From Nitrosospira sp. Nl5 (GTDB lineage Bacteria > Pseudomonadota > Gammaproteobacteria > Burkholderiales > Nitrosomonadaceae), in the NCBI RefSeq assembly GCF_900102495.1, contig NZ_FMVQ01000013.1, positions 1-64,000 of the forward strand: DNA of 64,000 nucleotides, written 5' to 3'. The position numbers and the translations under genes were made by a program. Below, piece after piece: positions 58,889 through 62,036 of this stretch (its first letter is position 1; the number at the start of each line of letters is the position of its first letter). The notes beneath the pieces are model-generated. The model was not told where the DNA came from. It searched no databases and saw only the letters and a list, made by a program, of their open reading frames with translations.

Positions 58889-60121
58889 ATGCCCGTCAAC
58901 TTAACGCCTCCACTACCCGAACAACTGATTACCATACAAGGCGTATCCCTCGGCATCGCAGAAGCCGGAATCAAGAAACCCGGCCGCAAGGATTTGCTCT
59001 TAATTGTGCTGGACGAAGGCGCAAAGGTTGCCGCTGTGTTTACGCAAAACGATTTTTGCGCGGCGCCGGTATTAGTCGCTAAAGAACATCTTTCAAATCC
59101 GGACTCTCCGATCCGCGCATTAATCATCAATACCGGCAACGCGAATGCTGGCACAGGTGAGGAAGGGATTGCGCGCACCCGCGCTACCTGTATCGAGCTG
59201 GCCCAACTGCTCGGTTGTAGCAGCAGCCAGGTATTGCCGTTTTCTACCGGTGTGATTATGGAGCTGCTGCCACTGGAAAAAATTGTCGCAGCCTTGCCCC
59301 TAGCGGTAGCCGACCTACAGCCTGACAACTGGTTTGCTGCCTCTCAGGCAATCATGACGACGGATATTGTACCGAAGGCCGTATCGAAGCGCATCACACT
59401 CGACGGCACAACCGTCACCATTACAGGCATTGCCAAGGGCTCCGGAATGATTCGTCCAGACATGGCGACAATGTTGAGTTACATCGCAACCGATGCGGCT
59501 TTGAGCCAGCCGTTACTGGAGGAAATCGTGCGGCACGCGGCGGAAAATTCGTTCAACCGCATCACGGTGGATGGCGATACTTCAACCAACGACGCTTTCA
59601 TTCTGATTGCCACGGGCCGTGCCGGCAATTCGACTATCATTGATAAAGCAAGTACTGGATTTGTGGCATTGCAAGATTCAATAACGGAGGTTGCGGCGCA
59701 GCTTGCGCAAGCGATTGTGCGCGATGGGGAAGGCGCGACCAAATTCATCACCATTCGAATTGAGGGCGGCAAGACATTGGGCGAATGCGCCAAGGTGGGA
59801 TATGCCATTGCACATTCACCCCTGGTTAAGACCGCTTTTTTCGCATCCGATCCAAATCTGGGGCGGATACTTGCGGCCATTGGTAACGCTGGCCTGGACG
59901 AACTTGATGTAAACAGGCTGCAACTCTATCTGGATGACGTGCTGGTTGCGGAAAATGGCGGCAGAGCGCACGCCTACCGCGAACAGGACGGCCAGCGGGT
60001 GATGAGGCAATCTGAAATCACTGTACGCGTTGCGCTTAACAGGGGAGAAACGTCCACCACAATATGGACGTGTGATCTGTCATATGATTACGTGAAGATC
60101 AATGCGGATTATCGAAGCTGA
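58889..60121 (+). CDS. argJ: Ornithine acetyltransferase/N-acetylglutamate synthase
   Basis: This 410-residue enzyme recycles acetyl groups in arginine synthesis and cleaves itself into two chains. The nucleophile after cleavage is Thr194 in PDMATMLS, with GSGMIRP just before it. NTGNANAG (81-88) is a conserved block. Bifunctional activity cannot be told from sequence. argJ lies 16 kb from the other arg genes here. Confidence 0.95.
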
Positions 60122-60176
60122 CAATTAACGAATCCATAAATTGGCCAACGAACAGGGCAAACATCAAAAACAAGTA

Positions 60177-60259
60177 GCGGTTGCATCGTGCACAACTAGC
60201 CCCGTCCACTTCGACCAGTGGCCCATTCGAGGCTAGTGCGAGCAGGCTGACACAACCGC
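60177..60259. terminator. Nested triple-stem structure between convergent genes
   Basis: Three stems are nested: GCGGTTG with CAACCGC (60177-60183/60253-60259), ACTAGCC with GGCTAGT (60195-60201/60231-60237) and CCACT with AGTGG (60206-60210/60217-60221). It lies between argJ and the EF-hand gene. No T tract follows, so a terminator or processing role is only plausible. Confidence 0.4.
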
Positions 60260-60273
60260 CAACGAAAACTCCC

Positions 60274-60807
60274 TTATTGACCCATCGGCCTCATATGGGG
60301 GAAATCACGGTCGACCTCCTCGCCCGCGCCGTATTCACGCTCGCGTTTTACTGTTAATCCTTCCTCATCCCTTAAATTACGGTCATCGGATCCGTAGGAG
60401 CTACGTTTCTGGCCATGCCCATAACCGTGCTTCTTTCTCATTTTGTTGGCTTCATCTTTATCGATGTACCCATCTCCGTTGGCGTCCATTTTTTCGAACA
60501 TGATTTGGCCATGGCGCGCGTGTTCTTCCTTGCTCACTCGACCATCATTGTCGGTGTCAGCCATGGACATTCCACATCGGCCCTCACCGTACTTCTTGTC
60601 TTGACCCTTTTCACCATATGCGTCTTTCTTGTCACCATACTTGTCACCGTGGTCGTGGTGCCCGGCCACCATGTAGCCTTTACCCAGAGATTGTGTGGTA
60701 AAAGGGCTTTCGTTCGCGGACGCAATCGGTGCGGTGCCTAGCGTAGCGGCGAAGGCAGATCCGATTGCGAGAGAAATCATCGATTTTTTGCTGGGCATAT
60801 TGTTCAT
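60274..60807 (-). CDS. Secreted EF-hand protein with single EGRCG motif
   Basis: This 177-residue protein has a signal peptide (about 1-32) and a His/Asp/Lys/Gly-rich stretch (49-75). Its only cysteine is Cys78 in YGEGRCGM. Two EF-hand loops follow, at 84-95 (DTDNDGRVSKEE) and 108-119 (DANGDGYIDKDE). The signal peptide plus ESPF...SLGKGYMVA plus EGxCG pattern resembles HvfA-type copper-binding precursors modified by MNIO (DUF692) enzymes. AAGGAG lies eight bases before the ATG. It interrupts the common argJ-ATPase-MutT order and no MNIO gene is nearby. It could simply be a calcium-binding protein. Confidence 0.75.
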   Translation of the reverse strand: MNNMPSKKSMISLAIGSAFAATLGTAPIASANESPFTTQSLGKGYMVAGHHDHGDKYGDKKDAYGEKGQDKKYGEGRCGMSMADTDNDGRVSKEEHARHGQIMFEKMDANGDGYIDKDEANKMRKKHGYGHGQKRSSYGSDDRNLRDEEGLTVKREREYGAGEEVDRDFPHMRPMGQ

Positions 60808-61157
60808 AATATCTTCTCCTTAATGTTTTACTTGGTTTTTGGTAATAAACCTGAGAAAAAGCGCTTGCCGAGTTGTTACGCCGAGGAAAAATAGATACCC
60901 TTGCCGGACGCTGACGTAACATACCAAATCATCCCTTTTCGGGCTCAGCAGTTCCGTACGATAGCGCACATAAAGAAGACGCGGTGCAGTTTAATCCGTG
61001 ATTTCCCTGTAAAGAAGCGAAATGTCAAAGTACACGGATTGAACGATTATGCCGAACAAGATTATGTTGTTAACAATATCACGTAATGCGCGACAGACCG
61101 GCAAAATGATGGCCGTCAATCCGTTACACATGTTTTTTAGTAGCCGCTATTGATGCT

Positions 61158-62036
61158 ATGAACGACTGGCCCACACTCTACATTCGCGCCGAGACGTTGC
61201 TTTCCCGGCTGGAGGGAATACTGTCCGCCGAACAGCCGACCCCCGACTGGAATGCCGCTGTTGCATTCCGCTGGCGAAAACACGGTCCTGCAGGATCTAT
61301 ACAGCCCATCATCCACCCACATCGGATCACGCTCGATGTATTGCGAGGCATTGAGGACCAAAAAGAGCTCATAGACCGGAATACCCATCAATTCGTGCAG
61401 GGTTATCCAGCCAATAATGTACTGCTTACGGGTGCGCGTGGTACGGGCAAGTCATCGCTGGTAAAAGCAATGCTTAACAAGTATGCGGCTTCGGGATTAC
61501 GTTTAATCGAAGTGGAAAAGCATAATCTCACCGATCTGCACGATATTGTTGAGCAGATCCATCAACGGCCGGAACGCTTCATCCTGTACTGTGATGATTT
61601 ATCGTTCGAATCCGATGAGCCTGGCTATAAGGCGTTGAAGGTGGTACTGGATGGTTCCATTGCCACGGCCTCCGAGAACGTGCTGGTTTACGCCACTTCC
61701 AATCGCCGCCACCTGATGCCTGAGTTTATGCAGGATAACCTGGATACCAGACACGCCGGTGGCGAAATCCATCCGAGTGAGTCGGCGGAAGAAAGAATTT
61801 CGTTATCCGAACGTTTCGGTCTATGGCTGTCATTCTACCCCTTCGATCAAGATCAATACCTGGATGTCGTCAGCCAATGGCTCACCTATTTCGGTGTCAA
61901 GGAAATAACTCTCCCGGTACGCCAGGCGGCGCTGCAGTGGGCGCTGGGGCGTGGTTTCCGGAGCGGACGCGTCGCGTGGCAGTTTGCGCGTGACTGGGCG
62001 GGAAAACAGAAAGCAGACGCCGGCGGAGAGCGGTAA
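61158..62036 (+). CDS. DUF815-family AAA ATPase
   Basis: This 292-residue P-loop ATPase has Walker A GARGTGKSS at 92-100 and a Walker B-like ILYCDDLSFE near 133-142. Family members are conserved beside argJ and mutT in betaproteobacteria; their role is unknown to me. No clear ribosome site precedes the ATG. It is followed 15 bases later by the Nudix gene. Confidence 0.88.
   Translation: MNDWPTLYIRAETLLSRLEGILSAEQPTPDWNAAVAFRWRKHGPAGSIQPIIHPHRITLDVLRGIEDQKELIDRNTHQFVQGYPANNVLLTGARGTGKSSLVKAMLNKYAASGLRLIEVEKHNLTDLHDIVEQIHQRPERFILYCDDLSFESDEPGYKALKVVLDGSIATASENVLVYATSNRRHLMPEFMQDNLDTRHAGGEIHPSESAEERISLSERFGLWLSFYPFDQDQYLDVVSQWLTYFGVKEITLPVRQAALQWALGRGFRSGRVAWQFARDWAGKQKADAGGER

Follow-up and report, generated by a model that had tools for sequence, protein, structure and literature searches.

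The gene analysed here encodes a protein of Nitrosospira sp. Nl5 with one EGRCG motif and two EF hands. The gene is paralogous to the one for the precursor beside the only MNIO gene of the genome, it has a single origin in the Nitrosospira lineage, and the EGRCG cysteine has been kept. Judged by its sequence, it is close to certain that the protein belongs to the class of EGKCG/EF-hand chimaeras (HvfA-like; Buf_EGKCG|EF-hand_5, and captophorins more broadly). We consider it probable on balance that it is a stand-alone precursor that would be modified by the enzyme encoded on another contig (C18), exported, and bind copper and calcium, under upstream control of its own. To the known chimaera class we add the single-origin insertion in Nitrosospira, the constraint on the cysteine, the loss of that cysteine in the related genus g4, and a palindrome upstream of the gene. 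The term window denotes the whole stretch of DNA analysed, 64,000 nucleotides in length.

The window gene and its protein

The features of the gene and its surroundings are summarized in Table 1. The signal peptide was predicted from a KK pair, a hydrophobic core and a cleavage site between TAPIASA and NESPF, and it aligns with those of MNIO-linked precursors. Modification was much reduced in HvfA lacking its signal sequence, and the signal aids recognition by HvfBC, according to the HvfA passage in PMC13419390. By analogy with this, the signal peptide of the window protein is probably also the leader recognised by the MNIO and its partner. The translation also includes a His-containing linker, GHHDHGDKYGDKKD. 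Pfam matches EF-hand_5 (PF13202, E=7e-11) and EF-hand_1 (E=1e-10) in two stretches each, with both EF-hand_5 domains C-terminal to EGRCG. The signal peptide, His segment, single cysteine in EGRCG and two EF hands of the original prediction are thus confirmed by the translation and, for the EF hands, by Pfam.

Table 1. Positions of the features discussed. Plain numbers are positions in the window; those with a locus name refer to loci of genus g4.
Feature	Position	Strand	Remarks
Stand-alone EGRCG/EF-hand precursor gene	60274..60807	(-)	ORF, ATG start, 177 aa, stop codon included
Signal peptide, residues 1-31	60715..60807	(-)	Read by eye; cleavage expected after ASA
EGRCG motif, residues 75-79, lone cysteine C78	60571..60585	(-)	Sequence
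EF-hand loop 1, DTDNDGRVSKEE, residues 84-95	60523..60558	(-)	Pfam EF-hand matches
EF-hand loop 2, DANGDGYIDKDE, residues 108-119	60451..60486	(-)	Pfam EF-hand matches
C-terminal tail, FPHMRPMGQ	60277..60303	(-)	Kept across the stand-alone lineage
Palindromic operator-like element, GTGCGCTATCGTACGGAA, 18 bases	60952..60969	(-)	Upstream of the stand-alone gene
Debris of DUF2063 and of MNIO, genus g4	L087:1896-2122 and L105:2529-2655		Downstream of cysteine-less EF-hand genes

The NCBIfam HvfA model (KCGExKCG_twice) does not match the window protein, and this counts against our reading. NCBIfam also gave XopAW and lanmodulin at 23 bits each (cut-offs 120 and 135); we reject both identities, as the EF hands alone match. 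An AlphaFold2 model built from nine sequences has a mean pLDDT of 54; block means rise to 72-84 over residues 81-120 and nowhere else. It fits a folded pair of EF hands with loose flanks, and nothing finer. A scan of positions 60000-61300 against Rfam up to E=1 gave no match.

An MNIO, its partner and a paralogous precursor in the same genome

The genome, assembled in 34 contigs with a total of 3.03 Mb and 99.07% complete, has a single MNIO gene (PF05114, 351 bits). It lies on contig C18; the window gene is on contig C30 and does not adjoin it. NCBIfam places the enzyme in the HvfB family (432 bits, cut-off 360) and its partner, a DUF2063 protein, in the HvfC family (277, cut-off 142). Directly upstream of the MNIO gene is a gene for a 136-aa paralogue with a signal peptide, EGRCG, EF hands and exactly one cysteine, to which the window protein is 56% identical over residues 2-123 (E=1.7e-35). 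Since this neighbour has one cysteine, a single-cysteine protein appears to be the cognate substrate of the C18 enzyme. The lone motif of the window protein, which had been considered odd, is therefore shared with the MNIO-adjacent paralogue.

The gene had been termed an orphan, and no MNIO had been seen in the window. That holds for the window and for this locus, but not for the genome, where enzyme, partner and paralogue are all found on C18. A genome lacking MNIO had been named as evidence against the proposal; one HvfB-type gene was found. Two options had been offered, an HvfA-like precursor with its enzyme acting in trans or a calcium protein sharing the signal region. The first is the better supported, because the genome contains an HvfB-type MNIO, an HvfC-type partner and, next to them, an EGRCG/EF-hand paralogue. 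From these sequences modification in trans seems rather likely, and a copper role is plausible, with chances of about even.

All 23 Nitrosospira genomes have an MNIO, and at each of the 23 loci fetched its match adjoins one to DUF2063. At some of these loci there is an extra precursor in which EGKCG occurs several times, and EF hands may be present or absent. A 74-aa multi-motif peptide at a related MNIO locus (L080) matches the NCBIfam HvfA model. The filter used to find precursors at MNIO loci gave no EF-hand precursor at L070; the homology search has one there (G022:C11:486498-486830). One Nitrosospira genome has a second, partial MNIO match within a 497-aa open frame (L104, G022:C10:513159-513794). 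Among the MNIO loci of other members of the family, 30 were inspected (L035-L064): the upstream precursor at 16 of them is an EGKCG peptide that lacks EF hands, the filter gave none at 13, and at the remaining one it gave an unrelated frame.

Insertion beside argJ and the DUF815 ATPase gene

In all 23 sampled Nitrosospira genomes the stand-alone gene is adjoined by argJ, the DUF815 ATPase gene or, in 21 of them, both. At L009 (G060) the ATPase gene is missing and the stand-alone gene lies between MutT and argJ, while at L022 (G056) no argJ was found in the 430 bases remaining before the contig end. The ATPase gene was found in 11 of 14 genomes searched from other genera. At ten of these 11 loci the end of argJ is within ~35 bases of the ATPase gene with no gene between them, the exception being an ATPase locus without argJ (L241). 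These ten uninterrupted pairs bear out the proposal that the gene was inserted into a normally contiguous argJ-ATPase-MutT group.

The 23 stand-alone proteins have one origin (support 100/99) in a tree of 72 proteins that includes all of them but 15 of the MNIO-linked proteins of the genus. An odd copy from G116, of the Nitrosomonas group g3, is nested among them. The simplest reading of the sequences is one insertion in the Nitrosospira lineage. In two genomes a second partial match to the window protein adjoins the stand-alone gene (G002:C61:9705-9923 and G060:C94:2558-2842); these are perhaps tandem copies.

Sequence constraint in the stand-alone orthologues

The reading frame is intact in all 23 Nitrosospira genomes. 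E75, G76, C78 and G79 are invariant in the 23 orthologues from this one genus, so the EGRCG/EF-hand layout is beyond chance. The third residue of the motif is R in 22 and K in one. EGRCGMSMA (residues 75-83) has pN/pS = 0.04, the lowest of nine segments compared. The EF loops have 0.12 and 0.11, the linker has 0.39 and residues 120-160 have 0.47; the value for the whole protein is 0.30. Five positions were checked in each EF loop, and nine of the ten are invariant; D86 of loop 1 is N in one protein of 23, and loop 2 is invariant throughout. Two orthologues have more than one motif, that of G056 with two EGRCG and that of G038 with a duplicated motif-plus-EF module. The protein and upstream alignments have 19 rows, leaving out L013, L014, L016 and L021; other counts cover all 23.

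These data bear on three other explanations of the gene. The first is a secreted calcium protein. Its cysteine would be a free thiol or would take part in a disulfide or a simple metal site of the Cys/His kind; leader and motif, both HvfA-like, would have come from a cluster-encoded ancestor and would no longer be used by the MNIO. We consider this unlikely, though not negligible. The near-invariance of the EF positions speaks for such a protein. Yet the EGRCG segment is both invariant and the slowest to change, and that fits recognition by an enzyme better than it fits a free thiol.

In the second, the protein is a periplasmic metal buffer acting through His, Met and acidic residues of the linker and the HM..M tail, with modification incidental. 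The tail is well kept, H171 and M175 in 23 of 23 orthologues and M172 in 22, and it is absent from the MNIO-linked paralogues inspected. There are five to 10 His residues per protein in the 19 orthologues counted. However, the linker is variable and its His residues are not fixed in position, and we regard this explanation as quite improbable. The third is that the gene is a decaying paralogue without function. It does lie outside the cluster, and the G116 copy looks degenerate. Against this stand the intact frames, the overall pN/pS and the conservation of the upstream element; decay is disfavoured by these counts, and we give it very little weight.

Genus g4 and other genomes without MNIO

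The family sample comprises 120 genomes, with a precursor-like match (E 1e-5) in 103 and MNIO in 93. Nineteen of the 27 MNIO-less genomes have a precursor-like match, and 17 of these were examined, G049 and G090 being left out. Genus g4 is represented by eight genomes, 72 to 99% complete. An EF-hand homologue was found in seven, grouping with the MNIO-linked lineage in the tree. The motif cysteine is gone from all seven, which have SEDKYG, GGGKYG, SGGGYG or GGGGYG. They retain the acidic ligands in both loops; the glycine of loop 1 is replaced in five of the seven, which may mean that EF hand 1 is changing as well.

No HvfB-type MNIO was found in any of the eight g4 genomes, and in six neither MNIO nor DUF2063 was found. 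The other two, G008 and G020 (L106 and L107), have a BufB-type MNIO (329 and 340 bits, cut-off 310) that falls below the HvfB cut-off; a DUF2282 precursor and a DUF2063 partner accompany it. Despite this BufB-type cluster, the motif cysteine is missing from the EF-hand homologue of G008. A gene for an ECF sigma factor is oriented divergently to the BufB-type MNIO gene at L106. Debris of a DUF2063 or MNIO gene lies downstream of the EF-hand gene in two g4 genomes (Table 1). In G004 there are DUF2063 fragments in two frames (best E ~1e-9). In G008 there are fragments matching MNIO residues 3-46, with internal stops. Of 1000 dinucleotide shuffles, 6, 1 and 0 scored at least as high as the best of these fragments with the three MNIO queries used.

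The original prediction held that homologues keeping the EF hands without the cysteine motif would speak against it. Taken literally the seven g4 proteins are such homologues, but they occur where no HvfB-type MNIO is found, with debris in two of the genomes, and we therefore read the loss as support for a link between cysteine and enzyme. The pattern suggests that the cysteine depends on the HvfB-type enzyme and is lost along with it, and that the EF half has a value of its own and persists without the enzyme. The persistence of cysteine-less relatives would also suit a calcium protein, whereas the absence of the cysteine where the HvfB-type enzyme is absent would not. Some weight is lost to our reading here, since the g4 proteins are one clade and so represent one event, the completeness of the assemblies varies as given above, and EF hand 1 is possibly changing.

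Two further genomes keep the motif cysteine with no MNIO found, and this also counts against modification in trans. G063, a 99% complete genome of the Nitrosomonas group, retains SGEGKCG, and neither MNIO nor DUF2063 was found in it; this again favors the calcium protein. G116 (80% complete) has the stand-alone-type copy with EAPCG, and its DUF2063 match is only below the cut-off. The other nine MNIO-less g3 genomes examined were excluded from the comparison of cysteine with MNIO; six have His-rich EF proteins with cysteines in another context, and three a protein with a similar leader and no EF hands. Outside the family, chimaeras at L181, L183 and L255 adjoin MNIO and DUF2063 genes.

Two other kinds of protein were seen at these loci. 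Beside the EGKCG/EF-hand gene of G063 is a gene for a small cysteine-rich protein (L095:2290-2604) that by eye resembles a copper storage protein; it has no Pfam or NCBIfam match. Proteins at L097-L099, L107:4627-5274, L113, L116 and L119 combine a similar leader-like N-terminus with a different domain, rich in Met and His and lacking EGxCG; they may be a second type of fusion that shares the leader.

A palindrome upstream of the stand-alone gene

The upstream palindrome is exact in 22 of 23 loci and has one mismatch in the last, although its pattern was drawn from those 23 loci and its presence there is thus no independent test. The 23 Nitrosospira MNIO loci gave no match to it. The element thus gives no sign of co-expression with the cluster, which counts against our reading, and the separate element, like the separate locus, would suit the calcium protein. 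Allowing up to three mismatches the first pattern is not enriched genome-wide, with 124 matches compared with 140 for the control. A stricter palindrome, GTNCGNTANCGNACDGAA, with up to one mismatch has 41 matches in the genome compared with nine for its reversed control; this pattern was written after the matches of the first scan had been seen, and its counts include five places taken on both strands. Some of the sites fall inside genes. Pfam gave matches for five of ten proteins near such sites (L125-L156), namely a Crp-like regulator, two BON-domain proteins, DUF308 and DUF4142.

Could the element belong to the divergent ATPase gene? We disfavour this, as no match with up to three mismatches lies beside argJ or the ATPase gene in the 11 loci without the stand-alone gene. 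The single three-mismatch match among them, at L251, is >1.4 kb past the ATPase gene. The sequences are consistent with separate control of the stand-alone gene, perhaps linked to envelope stress.

A proposed pathway

We envisage that the HvfB-type MNIO and HvfC-type partner encoded on C18 would recognise the signal peptide of the window protein while it is still in the cytoplasm and would convert C78 by oxidation to a 5-thiooxazole, after which Sec would export the modified precursor. Once periplasmic, the modified cysteine would bind copper, perhaps together with His residues close by and the HM..M tail, and the two EF hands would bind calcium. The upstream element would lead to the stand-alone copy being made under conditions other than those for the cluster copy.

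A more elaborate version of this pathway can be drawn. C78 is six residues ahead of D84, the first ligand of EF loop 1, where the entering helix of the EF hand is expected. Calcium loading could therefore order or bury the thiooxazole and so shift its affinity for copper, with the HM..M tail as a second set of ligands, a promoter of its own that possibly belongs to an envelope-stress regulon, and an enzyme borrowed from the other locus. Such a calcium-tuned copper chelator seems to us improbable.

Ammonia oxidisers depend on the copper enzyme ammonia monooxygenase, and copper handling therefore matters to them. For the purpose of EF hands in MNIO substrates, and for the modification of precursors encoded far from an MNIO, Nitrosospira provides a clean test: the genome of the window has one MNIO, an adjoining EF-hand precursor with a single cysteine, and a second such precursor at a distance that is probably under separate control. 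The related genus g4 is a natural control, having homologues without the cysteine and no HvfB-type enzyme.

Comparison with known systems

Our literature searches found nothing joining Nitrosospira to EF-hand proteins or DUF692, and no mention of Nitrosomonas in connection with bufferin, metallophore or MNIO. The sections of Antoine et al. 2025 (PMC12452194) covered here do not mention the Nitrosospira insertion or its upstream element, and 'nitroso' appears nowhere in the main text.

Those sections describe EGKCG proteins of a second type that carry two EF-hand_5 domains. Precursor genes that stand alone are described too, as are genomes in which a single MNIO/partner pair goes with several precursors; MNIO was absent from 67 of 2583 genomes with Buf_EGKCG genes. 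The authors propose that precursors distant from MNIO are either modified by an MNIO encoded elsewhere or unmodified. They leave open whether such precursors get modified, and why some MNIO substrates have EF hands. The Buf_EGKCG|EF-hand_5 chimaeras resemble the window protein in having a signal sequence, a short EGKCG-type domain without 17-residue repeats, and two EF-hand_5 domains. The window protein differs in its lone EGRCG, its long variable linker and its conserved HM..M tail. The same authors draw a comparison with EfhP of Pseudomonas aeruginosa, likewise an EF-hand protein.

The passages of PMC13097082 consulted assign 5-thiooxazole to the EGKCG cysteines of captophorins. They also report that FonBC in vitro modified a two-repeat peptide and left a one-repeat peptide unmodified. 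By analogy this is a caution for our reading, though FonBC is another enzyme, and it is in keeping with a calcium protein.

The Buf1 bufferins (DUF2282) share with the proposed system an MNIO with its DUF2063 partner, and also an exported precursor whose cysteines give rise to copper ligands. The precursor belongs to another family, and a cluster of that kind is present in G008 and G020. The likeness to HvfA (oxazolin) of Haemophilus influenzae lies in the secretion signal and the EGKCG cysteines, with HvfB- and HvfC-type genes in the genome of the window, and FonA (fontiphorin, a captophorin) similarly has EGKCG repeats. From the accounts covered, the repeats of HvfA contain six modified cysteines and those of FonA seven, whereas the window protein has one cysteine and two EF hands, and its gene lies outside the operon.
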